Positions 44,263 to 51,909 of a stretch of 64,000 nt of DNA are shown here, piece after piece (position 1 is the stretch's first letter; the number at the start of each line of letters is the position of its first letter). The DNA is taken from positions 124,001 through 188,000 of the forward strand of contig NZ_NGJN01000001.1 of NCBI RefSeq assembly GCF_002266855.1, in the 5' to 3' direction. The notes under the pieces were generated by a model. The model did not search any database, was not told the DNA's origin, and worked only from the letters and a program-made list of their open reading frames with translations. Source of the stretch: Winogradskyella aurantia. Lineage in GTDB: Bacteria; Bacteroidota; Bacteroidia; Flavobacteriales; Flavobacteriaceae. The position numbers and the translations under genes are program-made.

Positions 44263-45030
44263 TTAAAATTTTCCTACAGCTTCCAATTCTACTTTCAGCT
44301 CTTGAAACATGGTCATAATACTGCTTAGTTTAAGCTCTTTTTCATCATACTCTTGAGTATTGATGCAACATGTAAATTCCCAGAGCTCCAAAATATCATC
44401 TTTATCTGTCAAATAAGGTTTATACGCTTTATTGTCTGAACTTAACAGCAAATTTTGGGGGTCGTTTTCTGGGGTATAAACGCGCTTATAGACCAACCCA
44501 TCATGCTTTGTGAGTACCACATAGGTTCTTCCATTTTTAATATCATTAATATCCTCAATAAATTTTGCAACTATAAAAGACCCATCTTTTACAGGTAACA
44601 TAGAGTCACCTTTTATAGGGAAAGCTCTATGTGTCCCCGTAGGCAAAAAAGGCAATTTAATCTTTTGTAATTGCTCAATATATTCCGGGTCGTCATAGCC
44701 CGATAAATACCCTGCTGTTGCTTTTGCTGGAATGATTTCTATTAAATCCTGATTATCCTCATTTACCGTTATTGGAAATAAGATACGCTTATTGCCTACC
44801 TCAATAAAGGAGGTGTCTTTGGCTTTTCGCAAATCTTTTTTTACCAAAATATCTATAGGAATATCAAAATAATTAGAGAGCTCTATCAAACGGTCTATCG
44901 GTGGTTCCGAACGGCCTTCCTCATAAGCCCCAACAATTGAGCGCGTCCAATTAAGCTCATCTGCAAAACGCTCTTGCGATAGTTTTCGTAAGGTCCTGAG
45001 ATGCTTTATGTTAGTTTGAACGGGTTTCAT
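44263..45030 (-). CDS. XRE/S24-type self-cleaving repressor (LexA/CI-like)
   Basis: The 255-residue protein joins an N-terminal Cro/CI helix-turn-helix (HLRTLRKLSQERFADELNWT) to a C-terminal LexA-like S24 peptidase domain. The predicted self-cleavage site is Ala106-Gly107 (KATAGYLSG), with nucleophile Ser143 (KGDSMLP) and base Lys182 (VYKRV). Such proteins are inactivated by RecA-stimulated self-cleavage after DNA damage. It is divergent from a DnaE2-like and a Y-family polymerase gene, which it probably represses together with itself through the repeats at 45050-45089. Confidence 0.9.
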   Translation of the reverse strand: MKPVQTNIKHLRTLRKLSQERFADELNWTRSIVGAYEEGRSEPPIDRLIELSNYFDIPIDILVKKDLRKAKDTSFIEVGNKRILFPITVNEDNQDLIEIIPAKATAGYLSGYDDPEYIEQLQKIKLPFLPTGTHRAFPIKGDSMLPVKDGSFIVAKFIEDINDIKNGRTYVVLTKHDGLVYKRVYTPENDPQNLLLSSDNKAYKPYLTDKDDILELWEFTCCINTQEYDEKELKLSSIMTMFQELKVELEAVGKF

Positions 45031-45049
45031 GCTGGAGTAACTTTAACAC

Positions 45050-45089
45050 TATTTGCTACAAATATAAGCAATACTTACTACAAATAGTA
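45050..45089. promoter_or_regulatory. Double operator candidate between the repressor and polymerase genes
   Basis: The 9-base element CTACAAATA occurs at 45056-45064 and again at 45078-45086, 22 bp apart, close to two helical turns. The first lies in the inverted repeat TATTTG-CTA-CAAATA (45050-45064) and the second overlaps TACTA-CAAA-TAGTA (45076-45089). A minus-strand -7 element TATATTTG (45066-45059, for the repressor) overlaps the first copy, and a plus-strand -7 element TAATTTTG (45092-45099, for the polymerase) lies 2 bp after the second. Binding here would block both promoters. Confidence 0.6.
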
Positions 45090-45091
45090 GC

Positions 45092-45099
45092 TAATTTTG
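45092..45099 (+). promoter_or_regulatory. -7 element for the dnaE2-like/dinB operon
   Basis: TAATTTTG is a full match to TAnnTTTG and lies 8 bp before the ATG at 45108, so the leader would be very short. The region upstream at the -33 position is occupied by the inverted repeat rather than a clear TTTG, consistent with a regulated promoter. Confidence 0.5.
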
Positions 45100-45107
45100 T
45101 TAATCAT

Positions 45108-48080
45108 ATGTATTTAAACTGTCACACATATTACAGCTTGCGCTACGGTACTATAAAACCTGAGCAATTACTCGCTATTGCTTCAGAAAATGGTGTACAA
45201 ACCTTGGCGCTGACTGATATCAATAGTACTTCAGCGTGTTTAGATGTGATGCGCTTATCAAAAAAGTACAAGATAAAACCTGTGCTTGGTGTTGATTTTA
45301 GAAACGGAGTACAACAGCAATTTATCCTTATTGCCAAAAGTAATCTGGGGTTTCAGCATATGAATGTTTATTTATCGCAATTTTTGCATAACCAAGATTT
45401 GGACATCCCTGAACGACCTGATACGATTTTAGACGATTGTTTTGTGATTTATCCCTATAAAAAAGGGAAACGCTTCAACCTAAAATCCAATGAATTTTTA
45501 GGTATTGCCCCTGAAGACCTCAACCATTTAAAATTTTCAAAATGGAACCAGTTCCGCGAAAAGTTGGTTGTCCTTAAAACAGTATCCTTTCAAAATAAAA
45601 AGGGATTCAACACACACCGTTTGTTAAGGGCTATAGATAATAATACCTTATTGAGTAAACTCCCAAAGTCTGAAGAAGGTCAACCTCAGCATACCATGTT
45701 GCCTTACGATAGTTTATGCAATATCTACGATGATTATCCTGAACTTATTGACAATACCAATACGCTTTTAAAACACTGCAGCATACATTTTGATTTTTCT
45801 AGTAAAGCACCAAAAAATCAACATTCTTATACTAACAATGCTGAGTTAGATTTTAAACTGCTTAAAAAGCTGAGTTATGATGGTTTGTACTATCGTTATA
45901 AAAAACCTGGGGAACGCATTTTTAAGCGTATTGAAAAAGAATTAACTATCATAAAAGAAAAGGGCTTTGTATCGTACTTTCTCATCAACTGGAAAATTCT
46001 AAAATACGCACGTAGCAAAGGCTATTTTTATGTGGGTCGTGGTAGTGGCGCCAACAGTATCATCGCCTATTTATTGCGAATTACAGATGTTGACCCTGTA
46101 GAGTTGGATTTGTATTTTGAGCGTTTTATAAACCTGTTTCGTACCAATCCACCAGACTTTGATATTGATTTCTCTTGGCGCGACCGTGAGGATATTACAC
46201 AGTTCATTTTTAAGCGTTTTAAGCATACCGCATTATTGGCCGTTTATAACACCTTTAAGTTTAGAGCTTCGGTACGGGAATTAGGAAAAGTATTTGGTTT
46301 GCCAAAAGCCGAAATAGACGGTCTTACAGGGGGTAAATATCAGATAGCTAAACTAGATAGACTATCACAGCTAGTTATTAAATACAGCATATATATTGAA
46401 GGGTTTCCCAACTACCTCGGGATACATGCTGGTGGTATTTTAATCTCAGAGAAGCCTATACACTACTACACCGCAACCTTTATGCCTCCTAAAGGCTTTG
46501 CAACCACTCAATTTGATATGGTTGTGGCCGAAGATATTGGTCTGTACAAGTTTGATATTTTAAGTCAACGTGGCTTAGGTAAAATTAAAGAAGCAACAGA
46601 AATCATTGCCTACAATCACCCTAAACAACCTCCCATAGACATTCACGATATTAAGCGCTTTAAGCAAGACCAGCGTATTAAATATTTGTTGCGCAATGCT
46701 AAGGCCATTGGTTGTTTTTATGTAGAATCGCCTGCCATGCGTATGCTATTAAAGAAATTGCAGGTTGATAATTATTTAGGCTTGGTAGCCGCAAGTTCAG
46801 TCATTAGACCTGGTGTCTCTAAATCTGGTATGATGCGCCAGTACATCTTACGCTACCGCTATCCTGAAAAACGAAAAGAAGCCCATCCCATATTGCGCGA
46901 AATAATGCCAGAGACCTACGGTGTTATGGTTTATCAGGAAGATGTTATTAAAGTAGCGCATCATTTTGGTGGTCTTACACTTGGTGAAGCGGATATGTTA
47001 CGTCGTGGTATGTCTGGCAAGTTTCGCTCTAGAGATGAGTTTTTAAAAGTAAAACAGCAATTTTTTAACAACTGCCTAAACGATGGAAAACCCGAAGATA
47101 TCACAGCCGAAATTTGGCGACAGATTGAAAGTTTTGCAGGTTACGCATTTGCTAAAGGCCACTCAGCATCTTATGCCGTAGAAAGTTATCAAAGTCTATT
47201 TTTAAAGGCCTATTACCCATTAGAATATATGGTAGCCACCATTAATAATTTTGGCGGTTTTTACAGTACCGAATTCTATGTGCACGAGGCACGCATGCAT
47301 GGCGGCAGCATTGAAGCACCTTGCATCAACAACTCACAGAACCAAGCTGTAATTAAGGATAACGTCATTTATCTAGGCTTTATGTTTTTACAGTCCTTAG
47401 AGTCTAAGACCATTTCTCGTATTCTTAAAGTACGTGAGACTGGAGGTGGTTTTAAGTCTCTTGATGATTTTATTGAACGTGTTCCTATTTCCATAGAACA
47501 AATCACCATCTTAATTAAGATTAATGCCTTTAGGTTTACTGACGCTAATAAACGTGAATTGCTCTGGGAAGCTCACTTAAAAATTAATAAAACCTCTATT
47601 CAGGAAGAAGTTGTAACCTTATTCAAAACTGAGCGCATCAATTACAGCACACCCGAATTGCCGAGCACAACACTAGAAAATGCGTTTGATGAAATTGAAT
47701 TGTTGGGCTTCCCCTTATGCAATCCGTTTGATTTATTGGAAAAACCATCCACAAACAGCTTACGAGCCAAAGATTTAGAGCAGTTGGAAGGTAAGACCGT
47801 TAGTATTGAAGGCTATCTGGTAACTACAAAACAAACCAAAACGTCTAACAGAAAACTGATGCACTTTGGTACATTCTTAGACCGTGATGGCGATTTTATA
47901 GATACGGTTCACTTTCCACCAGTAGCTGCTAAGTATCCGTTTAGAGGTAAAGGTGTTTATGAAATTATCGGTAAGGTTATGATAGAATTTGATTGTGTAA
48001 CAGTTGAAGTTTCAAAATTAGAACGCTTGGCGATTATTGAAGACCCTAGGTATTCCGATAAAAAACTAAAAGCCTCATGA
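45108..48080 (+). CDS. DNA polymerase III alpha subunit, DnaE2-like
   Basis: The 990-residue C-family polymerase is shorter than replicative DnaE1 and resembles error-prone DnaE2/ImuC. The N-terminal PHP domain is degenerate (NCHTYYSLRYG, LTDINST), so no PHP proofreading is expected. The catalytic aspartates are in NPPDFDIDFSW, and VGRGSGANSIIAYLLRITDVDP and the FAGYAFAKGHSASYAVESYQ helix-hairpin-helix region follow; an OB fold ends the protein. Its stop overlaps the dinB start (ATGA), so both are translationally coupled. Likely role is translesion synthesis under SOS-like control. Confidence 0.93.
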   Translation: MYLNCHTYYSLRYGTIKPEQLLAIASENGVQTLALTDINSTSACLDVMRLSKKYKIKPVLGVDFRNGVQQQFILIAKSNLGFQHMNVYLSQFLHNQDLDIPERPDTILDDCFVIYPYKKGKRFNLKSNEFLGIAPEDLNHLKFSKWNQFREKLVVLKTVSFQNKKGFNTHRLLRAIDNNTLLSKLPKSEEGQPQHTMLPYDSLCNIYDDYPELIDNTNTLLKHCSIHFDFSSKAPKNQHSYTNNAELDFKLLKKLSYDGLYYRYKKPGERIFKRIEKELTIIKEKGFVSYFLINWKILKYARSKGYFYVGRGSGANSIIAYLLRITDVDPVELDLYFERFINLFRTNPPDFDIDFSWRDREDITQFIFKRFKHTALLAVYNTFKFRASVRELGKVFGLPKAEIDGLTGGKYQIAKLDRLSQLVIKYSIYIEGFPNYLGIHAGGILISEKPIHYYTATFMPPKGFATTQFDMVVAEDIGLYKFDILSQRGLGKIKEATEIIAYNHPKQPPIDIHDIKRFKQDQRIKYLLRNAKAIGCFYVESPAMRMLLKKLQVDNYLGLVAASSVIRPGVSKSGMMRQYILRYRYPEKRKEAHPILREIMPETYGVMVYQEDVIKVAHHFGGLTLGEADMLRRGMSGKFRSRDEFLKVKQQFFNNCLNDGKPEDITAEIWRQIESFAGYAFAKGHSASYAVESYQSLFLKAYYPLEYMVATINNFGGFYSTEFYVHEARMHGGSIEAPCINNSQNQAVIKDNVIYLGFMFLQSLESKTISRILKVRETGGGFKSLDDFIERVPISIEQITILIKINAFRFTDANKRELLWEAHLKINKTSIQEEVVTLFKTERINYSTPELPSTTLENAFDEIELLGFPLCNPFDLLEKPSTNSLRAKDLEQLEGKTVSIEGYLVTTKQTKTSNRKLMHFGTFLDRDGDFIDTVHFPPVAAKYPFRGKGVYEIIGKVMIEFDCVTVEVSKLERLAIIEDPRYSDKKLKAS

Positions 48081-49294
48081 ACCAAAACCGGTCTATTGTA
48101 CATATGGATTTAGATACTTTTTTCGTGTCCTGTGAACGACGTTTAGACAGTCGTTTGGAAGGTCGGCCAATACTTATTGGTGGTACTAGCGATAGAGGTG
48201 TTGTAGCGTCATGTAGTTATGAAGCCCGAAAATTTGGTGTGCATTCTGCCATGCCCATGCGTATGGCAAAACAACTTTGTCCAGAAGCTATTGTACTTCG
48301 AGGAAATACAGGAACCTACACTAAGTTTTCAAATGAGGTTACAGATATCATTAAAGAAAACGTTCCTATGTATGAAAAGTCTTCTGTTGATGAATTTTAT
48401 ATCGATCTTACAGGTATGGACAAGTTTTTTGGCTGTCACAAATTAGCCTCAGAACTGCGCCAAAAAATCATACATGAAACAGGCTTACCTATTTCCTTTG
48501 GCTTATCTATTAACAAAACCGTATCTAAAATCGCTACTGGTGAGGCCAAGCCCAATAATGAAATTAGAATTCTTAACGGCACAGAAAAACCATTCTTGGC
48601 TCCACTATCCGTTAAAAAAATACCTATGGTTGGGAAAGTGACCTATAAATCACTCTGCGACTTAGGTGTAAAACGCATTAAGACCATACAAGATATGCCC
48701 ATGGAGCTCATGCACAAAGTTCTAGGTAAAAATGGTTTGGTTATCTGGAAAAAAGCCAATGGTATAGACAACTCTCCTGTGATACAGTATCATGAACGTA
48801 AGTCTATTTCTACCGAGCGCACCTTTGGGCAAGACACCACCAATATCTACAAGCTGAAAGGTTTGGTCATTGCTATGGCAGAAAATTTAGCCTATCAATT
48901 GCGGCGCGGTAATAAACTTACGGCTTGTATTACCTTTAAGATTCGGTATTCCGATTTTCAAACCTATACCCAGCAACAGCGTATTCCATATACTGCAATG
49001 GACCATAATATCATTCCTATAGTACTAGACTTATTTAAAAAATTGTACAATCGCAGATTATTGGTAAGACTTGTCGGTGTGCGTTTTAGCCATTTGGTAG
49101 AAGGAGGGCACCAAATCAATTTATTCCAAGATGATGAGACACAGCTTAATCTGTGTAAAGCGATTGACAAAATGCGTAAGCGCTATGGAGATAGAGCCGT
49201 AATTAATGCCGCAGGTATGGAGGCCAAAACCATCAGTCGTTGGAATCCCTTTACAGGTGAACCGCCACCACTACTAGCTAATAGACATCAGTAA
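48077..49294 (+). CDS. dinB: Y-family DNA polymerase (DinB/Pol IV-like)
   Basis: The 405-residue polymerase has the Y-family palm motifs HMDLDTFFVSCERRL and SSVDEFYIDLTGMDKFFG, a fingers segment with PMRMAKQLCPEA, a thumb helix-hairpin-helix (VKKIPMVGKVTYKSLCDLGV) and a little-finger domain (RKSISTERTFGQDTT). It lacks the beta-clamp end that I would recognise at once (the tail is NPFTGEPPPLLANRH). It overlaps the dnaE2-like gene by 4 bp. Together they form a mutagenesis pair comparable to ImuB-DnaE2, but this protein seems to have an intact active site. Confidence 0.93.
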   Translation: MNQNRSIVHMDLDTFFVSCERRLDSRLEGRPILIGGTSDRGVVASCSYEARKFGVHSAMPMRMAKQLCPEAIVLRGNTGTYTKFSNEVTDIIKENVPMYEKSSVDEFYIDLTGMDKFFGCHKLASELRQKIIHETGLPISFGLSINKTVSKIATGEAKPNNEIRILNGTEKPFLAPLSVKKIPMVGKVTYKSLCDLGVKRIKTIQDMPMELMHKVLGKNGLVIWKKANGIDNSPVIQYHERKSISTERTFGQDTTNIYKLKGLVIAMAENLAYQLRRGNKLTACITFKIRYSDFQTYTQQQRIPYTAMDHNIIPIVLDLFKKLYNRRLLVRLVGVRFSHLVEGGHQINLFQDDETQLNLCKAIDKMRKRYGDRAVINAAGMEAKTISRWNPFTGEPPPLLANRHQ

Positions 49295-49296
49295 AT

Positions 49297-51909
49297 TTAT
49301 CGCTTTAATGTAAAATGAGACGTAAACACTCTTGGTGAGCCATTCTCGTTAAAATAGTCCACCTTAAACCAATAATCATTCGCCGGCATTAGAGCGCCGT
49401 TGTATGCACCATCCCAACCAGAGCGTGTTGGTCTAATGGTGGCAAGGATTTTACCGTATCTATCAAAAATACTTATCCTGGCATTTGGTTGATTCCTTAA
49501 ACAGGTAATATTCCAAAAGTCATTATCTGAATCACCATTGGGCGTAAAGAATTTAGGGTATTCCAAAATACGAAAGGTTTCACTGGCAACATTACTACAA
49601 CCTGAGGATTCACGTGCCCTTATAATATGTTCCTCACAACCGGATACTCTTCTAAATACATTAGTCTCAACCCAAGGGCCACCGTCTAATTGATATTCAT
49701 ACGTGCCCGTACCACCTATCACAGTGGCCACCACAGTTTGATTATCACTAAATGGCTCCGTTACGACCTCAACCTCCAAAGACAATTCCGATATGGGAAT
49801 AACCTCAACCGTCAAGGTGGTTTGGCCCGCACATTGATTTGCGTTAGGCGTAAATGTGTAAGTCGTTGTTTCCAGATTATTCAAATCTGGTGTCCAGACC
49901 CCAGTTATGCCGTCATTTGAAACGATAGGTAAGTTGTCTAAATTATCTCCTGTACAAATAGGTCCAACAGCATCAAAGGATGGGACAATAGGCTCTGTTA
50001 CCACAATTTCTAAAGTTGTAGAGACTACACAACCCTGCCCTGGCTCTGGTGTAAAGGTATAGACTGTTGTTTCAACATTATTCAATTCGGGTGTCCAGGT
50101 TCCAGAAATCCCATTTAGGGATACGACAGGCAAATCAGCGATAAACTGCCCTGGGCAAACTGGCCCCACAGCATCAAACAAGGGTATTTCATTAGGAATC
50201 ACTTCAACCGTTAGGGTAACCTCAACAGCACATTGATTGCCCGAAGGTGTGAAGGTATAGATAGTGGTTTCGGTATTATTTAATTCAGGCGTCCAGGCAC
50301 CACTAATTCCGTTATTGGATATTGTAGGCAAATCATTGAGGGTATCACCTTCACAAATGGGAGGTACGGCATCAAAGACGGGAATCTCATTGGGCACCAC
50401 CTCAATTTGAAGCGTTGTGGGTATTGCACATTCTTCAACATTTGGTGTAAAGGTATAAGTTGTAGTGGTTGTATTGTCTATTTCAGGAGACCATGTTCCA
50501 GCGATACCATTGGTGGATGTCGTCGGTAATTCTACCCCAGTATCTCCTTCACAAATTGGCCCTACTGATTGAAACGTTGGTGTAAGTATTGGGTTGACAA
50601 CAACCTCCAAGGTTGTTTCTTGGGCACAAATTTGACCGGCATCAGGCGTAAAGGTATAGGTAGTTGTTGCCAATGGGTTTAACGCAGGGGCCCAAGTTCC
50701 TGTTATGCCATTAGTAGATGTGGTTGGCAAAGGGGCAAGTGCATCACCTTCACAGATAGGGTCTACAGGGTCAAAGGTTGGAAATTGTAAAGGGTTAACT
50801 ACAATTTCAAGCGTGGTTGAAGTAGCGCATAGATTGTTTGGCGTAAATGTATACGTTGTCGTTTGGGTGTTATTAAGAGCGGGAGACCAAGTACCCGTCA
50901 ACCCATTGTTTGAGGTTGTTGGTAAATTGTCTAAGGCATCTCCCTCACATATTGGTGCTACCGCGTCAAAAATTGGGTCTTCAATAGGAAGAACAAATAA
51001 TGTAAATTCTTCTTCTGTGATATTACCACATACATCTGCAATGGTTACCGTATACGTTGTGTTCGTATTTGGTGAAAGTGTAGGGTTGGCAATATTTGGA
51101 TTACTTACGCCGTTAATTGGTGACCATGAATAGGTTTCTCCACTTGGAATTGTGGCATCAATTACTTTAGAAGAGCCTTCGCAAATGAAATCATCCTCTA
51201 TCTGTAAATTATCCACAAATGAAATGCTGTTAAAACAGACTTCATGTATGTTGGTCAAACCTCCTGTTGACCCTACAAAGCCAAAAAAAACAGAATCATC
51301 ACCGGAAAATATGACATTTTTAACATCCTGATTCAATGTTAGTCTCAATTCGCAATCAAAAAACACACTTAAAATGTTGGTAGTCGCATTCCACTCTATT
51401 TTTATTTCATGGGTATTTCCATCTTCGATGTTTGCACTTGTAGCACTGGCTTGAATTGGACCAGATAAGTTACTGGCACCACTGTTATGGTTAGGGCTGC
51501 CGTTTCTCATTATGGAGATGTGATCAAAAAATGGGTCCCCCAAATCCCCATTCTGATAGGTATCAAACTCTATAACCAACGATGGGGATATGCCTTCATA
51601 GCCTACACCTCCGCCCGCATTTCCTAACTCAGGAGTTGGATTACCTTTAAACACCAATGCCATACCGTCGGCACCATTAGCATCTAAGGCACCAAAATTA
51701 TTTTGATATAAAATGGTAAAGTCTTCGTCAAAATCAATGGGATTATTATACCAAACACCTCCGGCCTGGAATTCTAAATTTTGGGTAATAGTATAACAAT
51801 TATTGCCTTGGTCAATAGCATCTCCAATTACAGCAGCGTTTAATTGAGCCATAACAGAACCTGTCACACACAGGGCTATTACCACAAAACCGTAAATTTT
51901 AGAATGCAA
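49297..51909 (-). CDS. T9SS type B secreted protein with lectin-like domain and six tandem repeats
   Basis: The 870-residue protein has a signal peptide (1-21), a legume-lectin-like domain (about 25-235: DGMALVFKGNP, GYEGISPSLVIEFDTYQN), a PKD/Ig-like module (about 240-310), six repeats of 65-67 residues (312-707), a further Ig-like segment, and a T9SS type B (gliding-motility-associated) C-terminal signal (FFTPNGDSDNDFWNI to TSHFTLKR). It is probably exported by the type IX system and attached to the surface. Adhesion or sugar binding is an inference from the lectin fold. It converges with dinB with 2 bp between stops. Confidence 0.92.
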   Translation of the reverse strand: MHSKIYGFVVIALCVTGSVMAQLNAAVIGDAIDQGNNCYTITQNLEFQAGGVWYNNPIDFDEDFTILYQNNFGALDANGADGMALVFKGNPTPELGNAGGGVGYEGISPSLVIEFDTYQNGDLGDPFFDHISIMRNGSPNHNSGASNLSGPIQASATSANIEDGNTHEIKIEWNATTNILSVFFDCELRLTLNQDVKNVIFSGDDSVFFGFVGSTGGLTNIHEVCFNSISFVDNLQIEDDFICEGSSKVIDATIPSGETYSWSPINGVSNPNIANPTLSPNTNTTYTVTIADVCGNITEEEFTLFVLPIEDPIFDAVAPICEGDALDNLPTTSNNGLTGTWSPALNNTQTTTYTFTPNNLCATSTTLEIVVNPLQFPTFDPVDPICEGDALAPLPTTSTNGITGTWAPALNPLATTTYTFTPDAGQICAQETTLEVVVNPILTPTFQSVGPICEGDTGVELPTTSTNGIAGTWSPEIDNTTTTTYTFTPNVEECAIPTTLQIEVVPNEIPVFDAVPPICEGDTLNDLPTISNNGISGAWTPELNNTETTIYTFTPSGNQCAVEVTLTVEVIPNEIPLFDAVGPVCPGQFIADLPVVSLNGISGTWTPELNNVETTVYTFTPEPGQGCVVSTTLEIVVTEPIVPSFDAVGPICTGDNLDNLPIVSNDGITGVWTPDLNNLETTTYTFTPNANQCAGQTTLTVEVIPISELSLEVEVVTEPFSDNQTVVATVIGGTGTYEYQLDGGPWVETNVFRRVSGCEEHIIRARESSGCSNVASETFRILEYPKFFTPNGDSDNDFWNITCLRNQPNARISIFDRYGKILATIRPTRSGWDGAYNGALMPANDYWFKVDYFNENGSPRVFTSHFTLKR
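49789..50976 (-). repeat. Six tandem coding repeats of about 198 bp
   Basis: Residues 312-707 consist of six copies of a 65-67-residue unit with the frame P-x-F-D-x-V-x-P-I-C-x-G-D, LPTTSxNGI-x-GTW-x-P, TTTYTFTP, C and LEIVV. Two conserved cysteines per unit suggest a disulfide. DNA identity between copies is clearly lower than protein similarity, so these are old duplications. Confidence 0.9.

Follow-up and report, generated by a model that had tools for sequence, protein, structure and literature searches.

The locus raises two questions: whether a phage-type repressor and the two polymerase genes divergent from it form a damage-inducible mutasome with a switch of its own, and how such a switch relates to those already described. 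It lies in the window, by which we mean the whole 64,000-nucleotide stretch of DNA that was analysed (G000:C1:124001-188000 of a 3.2-Mb genome). A preliminary description had placed here an S24 repressor transcribed away from two polymerase genes, the first of the C-family and the second an active Y-family member whose start overlaps the stop of the first. This arrangement was found as claimed, with all three open reading frames in place (Table 1), the Y-family ATG overlapping the polymerase TGA (ATGA) and a gap of 77 bp between the repressor and polymerase genes. The closest polymerase homologs are from Winogradskyella, at 82% identity. The gene downstream of the cassette (49297-51909, minus strand) codes for a protein that has a legume-lectin-like domain and carries a type IX secretion signal of the CHU_C kind.

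Table 1. Genes and predicted regulatory features of the cassette (window coordinates)
Feature	Position	Strand	Basis and remarks
CI-like S24 repressor, non-canonical LexA type	44263..45030	-	ORF, 255 aa; HTH_3 + Peptidase_S24 (Pfam)
Putative cleavage site A106-G107; S143/K182 dyad; recognition helix (about residues 30-38)	within 44263..45030	-	Alignment and predicted model
Predicted operator 1, GCTAC-aaata-TAAGC	45055..45069		Overlaps predicted -10 of repressor promoter; conserved register
Predicted -10 (TATATTTG) of repressor promoter	45059..45066	-	Inside operator 1; sequence
Predicted operator 2, ACTAC-aaata-GTAGC	45077..45091		22 bp from operator 1
Predicted -10 (TAATTTTG) of polymerase operon	45092..45099	+	Abuts operator 2; sequence
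Short C-family polymerase, DnaE2B-like	45108..48080	+	ORF, 990 aa; PHP + DNA_pol3_alpha + finger + HHH (Pfam)
Active Y-family polymerase	48077..49294	+	ORF, 405 aa; IMS + IMS_C (Pfam)

Our reading, to which we give a probability of roughly 85%, is that the cassette is a mutasome operon for translesion synthesis under a repressor of its own, and that it would be induced by DNA damage through RecA-dependent cleavage of that repressor. At the level of sequence the support comes from the layout, the self-cleavage residues, two conserved dyads, the catalytic residues of both polymerases, and the clamp and RecA-like motifs of the Y-family protein.

The repressor is CI-like rather than LexA, as first described: its N-terminus gave only HTH_3, HTH_19 and HTH_31 matches in Pfam, joined to an S24 domain, and no match to the canonical LexA winged-helix domain PF01726. 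Its PHROG matches are repressors, and its predicted fold matches the lambda and 186 repressors and LexA (Foldseek; whole-model pLDDT 61.7). The N-terminal part of the model, in which residues 30-38 form the recognition helix, is confident. The Ala-Gly cleavage site and the Ser-Lys pair were located where the description had put them, and Ala106, Gly107, Ser143 and Lys182 are invariant in 72/72 aligned orthologs, a set that excludes the distant L081, L082, L096, L099 and L104 and further repressors below 55% identity. Seven loci (L002, L005, L109, L111, L113, L120 and L123) had been dropped before any counts because they duplicate the window or another locus. A related repressor on a Chryseobacterium plasmid (L300:4983-5762) has Met-Gly in place of the expected cleavage Ala-Gly. 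Within its own genome the window repressor is the only match of a protein query to cover the S24 part, three other matches being weak and HTH-only, in keeping with its proposed role as a stand-in for LexA. This census used the protein query, a Pfam S24 profile search at E 0.001 having missed even the window repressor. It is the only SOS-type repressor found in this genome, and its regulon appears reduced to the cassette and possibly splB.

The intergenic gap holds two sequences, TATATTTG and TAATTTTG, that we take to be Bacteroidetes -10 boxes (consensus TAnnTTTG), and the second of them would leave a very short leader, or none, ahead of the polymerase ATG. A putative palindromic operator with a 5-bp spacer is present in the sequence of the repressor's own promoter. 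The predicted operators overlap or abut both predicted -10 boxes, and binding of the repressor would be expected to shut both promoters. An RCTAC operator pair at exactly 22 bp was found in 64/72 orthologous repressor loci. In 62 of them two sites, each with at least one RCTAC half, stand at this spacing in the stretches first examined (up to 330 bp per gap, or 200 bp where the sequence covered showed no divergent polymerase). The other two, L037 and L038, the only loci for which whole gaps were read, have the pair farther out in longer gaps. Eight other spacings (18-26) used as controls gave 0-2 loci, and the shuffled mean was 0.0 over 20 rounds. The loci outside the 64 are L130 and L274 (GCTAA/GCTCA/GCTTA-like halves), L275 (ACTAA/ACTCA-like) and five with changed halves, L048, L053, L058, L285 and L282. 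The operator type, RCTAC-N5-GTAGY, matches neither published motif (CTAA-N5-TTAG, GGA-N5-TCC). A literature search on the SOS response of Winogradskyella gave no description of this clade's operator, and neither did the first 10 of 1,798 matches of a search on non-canonical LexA in Bacteroidetes since 2022. The strings 'CTAC', 'GTAG' and 'Winogradskyella' are absent from the main text of PMC8565304.

In the C-family polymerase both the catalytic PDFDIDF motif and the third Asp are kept. The PHP domain of this enzyme is degenerate, which agrees with the earlier view: it has LNCHT and TDIN where the replicative DnaE of the genome has LHNHS and TDHG, so that the TDH motif lacks its His and only the second His of HxH remains. 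The clamp motif is weakened as well (TLF versus QVSLF in the other DnaE), and no exonuclease domain was found in the cassette enzyme. Since the genome holds a second C-family enzyme, a DnaE of 1461 aa at G000:C1:16682 with an N-terminus that by eye is exonuclease-like, the objection that the cassette polymerase might be the only replicative DnaE does not apply. The available sections of PMC3919608 describe a PHP and a thumb that are reduced in the DnaE2 of Bacteroidetes, and an exonuclease-like N-terminus in some Bacteroidetes DnaE1. The label 'DnaE2-like' stands by the literature, but DnaE1-type models outscore the DnaE2-type model on the cassette polymerase by 507.7 to 431 bits. In a 21-row tree with long branches the Bacteroidota cassette polymerases form a group of their own, joined neither by the three alphaproteobacterial DnaE2 nor by the four further DnaE included.

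The separate, longer DnaE also bears on whether the polymerases might be constitutive or replication-linked, for example in gap filling, with a repressor that tunes only its own gene. Both enzymes do keep their catalytic residues, unlike ImuB systems, as such a role would suit. Given that other DnaE, and an operator 2 conserved in register right next to the predicted polymerase -10, we find this account hardly credible.

The catalytic acidic residues that the Y-family protein was said to retain, Asp11, Asp105 and Glu106, are present in 74/74 homologs from polymerase loci, window included. Near its C-terminus stands a clamp motif, QINLF (346-350), with Q346 and F350 kept in 74/74 and L349 in 73/74, followed at about 359-381 by a stretch like the RecA N-terminus in which D364, R367 and G371 are kept in 74/74; the latter was recognised by eye after PMC6511836. 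The genome has two Y-family matches, both with intact catalytic residues, and the other enzyme lacks the clamp motif and the RecA-like stretch, none of their conserved residues aligning in it. With both elements on the Y-family protein, the contacts with the clamp and with RecA would sit there, an arrangement that fits a mutasome in which the Y-family partner would bring in the second polymerase. As to the reported lack of imuA, the only match of an ImuA model in the genome was a RecA far below the cut-off, a cut-off that no control genome passed either.

A competing view accepts the proposed regulation and holds that the polymerases work independently, the Y-family protein as an ordinary Pol IV and the C-family protein as an enzyme of its own, with no complex with RecA. 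It is unlikely, in our judgment. Catalytic residues kept in both proteins, a gene order that is swapped and a spacing that varies between lineages would all be expected under it. The two genes frequently co-occur, however, and overlap here, and the Y-family protein has a strong clamp motif with a RecA-like stretch where the C-family one has only a weak clamp motif, which points to the joint mutasome.

Distribution was assessed in 149 Flavobacteriaceae genomes, our own included, each of a different genus code. The repressor had a match in 104/149, and an ortholog at >=59% identity was present in 43 genomes (45 places; counted from the listing); the cassette is common in the family, as had been proposed. 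A second, more distant S24 homolog, full or nearly so, is present in seven of the 43, and this genome is not among them. A divergent polymerase start was found within 800 bp of the repressor in 36/45 places, which bears out the expected co-occurrence, and the C-family gene comes first in 24 of these pairs and the Y-family gene in 12. In the remaining 9/45 none was seen at that distance; for 30/45 places the flank covered was no more than 1500 bp.

Relatives of the repressor also occur on plasmids. On an Emticicia plasmid (NC_018742.1; L291, conjugative) and a Chryseobacterium plasmid (NZ_CP033916.1; L300, mobilizable) a related repressor is divergent from dinB-dnaE. Cassettes on conjugative and mobilizable plasmids suggest that the mutagenesis module can probably travel. 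A Dyadobacter plasmid (NZ_CP099631.1; L302, 1-5801) carries a related CI-like S24 repressor, and the genes divergent from it are annotated as imuA, a Y-family polymerase and dnaE2 (error-prone); a repressor of this type opposite imuA-type genes suggests that the same kind of repressor guards either mutasome. No polymerase was seen within 5 kb of the repressor homolog on a Runella plasmid.

The predicted regulon is probably small, comprising the cassette and, in some genomes, splB, and not recA. No such operator was found upstream of recA, unlike in the canonical SOS regulon. A perfect site lies upstream of a splB-like radical-SAM gene (Radical_SAM) of this genome. The gene itself (L139:393-1466, minus strand; G000:C1 about 244977-246050) is outside the window and has an in-frame TAG about 48 codons past its likely start, and the perfect predicted operator is about 35 bp upstream of that start. 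The splB gene is present in 20/30 relatives searched. With this genome included, 9/21 regions upstream of splB show a site at up to one mismatch, 4/21 show an exact one, and 12 are without. The permuted half-site TCACR also gave 9/21 at one mismatch, perhaps from conserved coding, and 1 exact, and the mean over 60 permutations, the real one included, was 0.65. From these sequence comparisons we regard splB as a probable second target in some genomes. The claim that the cassette is self-contained therefore holds nearly for regulation, but not fully, given this probable target and a RecA that comes from elsewhere.

A larger regulon was considered and rejected, as motif counts did not exceed those of reversed-pattern controls. 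Genome-wide, the 14-base site at up to three mismatches occurs in 375/363 places versus 490/490 for the reversed pattern, RCTACN5GTAGY at up to one mismatch gives 192 sites versus 281 for its control, and across 16 genomes CTACWWNWWGTAG gives 2-9 sites per genome versus 4-19. For the target check 75 CTACWWNWWGTAG sites were listed from 14 genomes (G000 and G009 not listed); 10 cassette and 2 splB sites were set aside, and the remaining 63 were joined by 9 RCTACN5GTAGY sites of this genome (those at splB and at a recombinase among them) to make 72. Twelve of these further sites fall outside any ORF of at least 70 aa, and no intergenic-site target recurs between genomes. Four groups of similar neighbouring genes do recur, in 2-3 genomes, with the site inside an ORF in each. 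The tyrosine recombinase (Phage_integrase) has a perfect CTAC-type palindrome about 65 bp upstream (L144:1501-1515; G000:C14:12658-12672); it was rejected as a chance match, with a site at up to one mismatch in 0/14 related places within 500 bp upstream.

The operator series also pointed to a candidate specificity residue. Residue 34 lies in the recognition helix. Most of the 72 orthologs have Gly there (60), the others Ser (7), Ala (3), Met (1) or Thr (1). In 62 loci, all with Gly or Ser at 34, C stands as the second base in 242/248 halves, a count that leans towards C because the register was chosen by RCTAC. In the five loci with another residue no C stands at that position in any of the four halves: with Ala34 the halves are GATAC/GTGTA (L048) or GGTAC/GATAA/GGTTA (L058, L285), with Met34 GTTTC/GTTTA (L053) and with Thr34 GTTAC/GTTTA/GTTCG/GTTTG (L282). 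The register was fixed by the -10 box for L048, L053 and L058, and by eye in the homologous register for L285 and L282. An unbiased search returned the RCTAC register in most loci; L048, L282 and several Gly-34 loci preferred another. Half-sites and residue 34 thus change together in 5/72 loci, and 3/3 independent pairs agree (p 0.25). Three pairs are too few for significance, and the paired change is suggestive only.

The same operon is also found under other operators. Among 80 polymerase loci, 32 have a close ortholog of the repressor, 5 a distant one and 43 no match in the stretch examined. Upstream of the first polymerase gene, GGA-N5-TCC occurs in 25 of these 43 (21 with at least two copies), CTAA-N5-TTAG in 7 and CTAC sites in 2; scrambled controls gave 2, 1 and 0, respectively. 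L036 and L076 have CTAC operators upstream of the polymerase and no repressor match nearby; the repressor may sit elsewhere. GGA, CTAA and CTAC sites before the same operon indicate one operon type under three operator systems, according to lineage, and hence under repressors that are probably interchangeable.

The GGA and CTAA sites, which are the published SOS motifs of the phylum, tell against a further possibility, that the repressor answers to a different signal, or was domesticated from a prophage or plasmid and controls the cassette without RecA-dependent cleavage. A CI-like N-terminus, PHROG matches to repressors and relatives on plasmids, one of them conjugative, would be in keeping with such an origin. 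The four cleavage residues are nevertheless invariant in 72/72, and the available text of PMC8565304 reports related repressors as damage-induced, which makes this possibility highly unlikely in our view.

In a tree of 99 whole repressors, HTH included, with 27 distant repressors (not all) taken back in, three groups each made up one side of a branch, with an SH-aLRT support of 79 for the CTAC group (72), 100 for the CTAA group (6) and 100 for the GGA group (8), on long branches. The names of the last two groups were assigned from the sites at their promoters, not from sequences of PMC8565304. Window-type repressors would on this basis form a group of their own, with a support of only 79. It is an even bet, we believe, that in many Flavobacteriaceae a third phage-type SOS repressor lineage, its gene lying within the mutasome cassette, took the polymerase operon from LexA substitutes of the GGA or CTAA type, or lost it to them, with the SOS regulon shrunk to mutagenesis and splB and the operator drifting by paired changes of half-site and residue 34, the 22-bp spacing and the -10 boxes staying fixed.

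As a damage-inducible mutasome operon the cassette would work as follows. Bound as dimers to the two operators, the repressor would keep both its own gene and the polymerase operon silent. Once DNA is damaged, RecA filaments formed on it would trigger self-cleavage of the repressor at A106-G107, and the polymerase operon would be derepressed. The Y-family subunit, tethered to the clamp and to RecA, would bring the DnaE2B-type polymerase to lesions, and resynthesised repressor would reset the switch.

LexA-type operators differ drastically between bacterial groups, and it is difficult to observe how one form passes into another. In this case a short intergenic region can be aligned over many genera. 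Its two promoters stay the same, and the halves are RCTAC, GATAC, GGTAC, GTTTC or GTTAC, each kind paired with its own recognition helix; the polymerase operon is found under three operator systems. Natural pairs of repressor and operator, few but open to testing, are thereby at hand, together with the candidate specificity residue, and comparison of the relatives suggests how a switch of this sort evolves in step with the sites that its repressor binds.

The cassette is real, and it is of a kind already described. The imuA-imuB-dnaE2 cassette of other bacteria is SOS-linked, and its ImuB is catalytically dead. Both are operons that join a Y-family protein to a second DnaE, but here no imuA was found, the Y-family active site is kept and the polymerase falls outside the alphaproteobacterial DnaE2 group in our tree. 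Another counterpart is the DnaE2B-PolY-RecA module of Bacteroidetes (PMC12926913, as far as its available text goes), which likewise sets a DnaE2-type polymerase beside an active Y-family protein with a RecA-NT motif, with no ImuA found; that text does not take up the repressor or the operators of the group. The accessible part of PMC6511836 lists PolY2 with DnaE2 in Bacteroidetes, both apparently active, including an operon of Cellulophaga algicola. The non-canonical LexA of Bacteroidetes (Sanchez-Osuna et al. 2021, PMC8565304) is CI-like, with two motifs. In the sections available, the family was tested by EMSA and by RT-qPCR with mitomycin C, and its members were reported to bind dyads of this sort and to be induced. 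The preliminary description's view that there is little experimental description was thus mistaken or incomplete, the polymerase pair also having been catalogued (PMC6511836, PMC12926913). The same sections report an Elizabethkingia member, with the site TTAC-AAATT-GTAA, opposite an error-prone polymerase, diverged operators in some paralogs and in Weeksellaceae, SplB in Bacteroidetes SOS regulons and a control of recA that is itself variable. As far as they go, our repressor shares with non-canonical LexA the HTH_3 N-terminus, the S24 C-terminus with Ala-Gly and Ser-Lys, a dyad with a 5-bp spacer, often in two or more sites, and a control, here predicted, of a DinB-DnaE operon and splB. It differs in its RCTAC-N5-GTAGY operator, its separate tree group (support 79) and a predicted regulon without recA. 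What our analysis adds to the known kind is the CTAC operators, a probable small regulon, the exchanged control systems and the matched series of repressors and operators.
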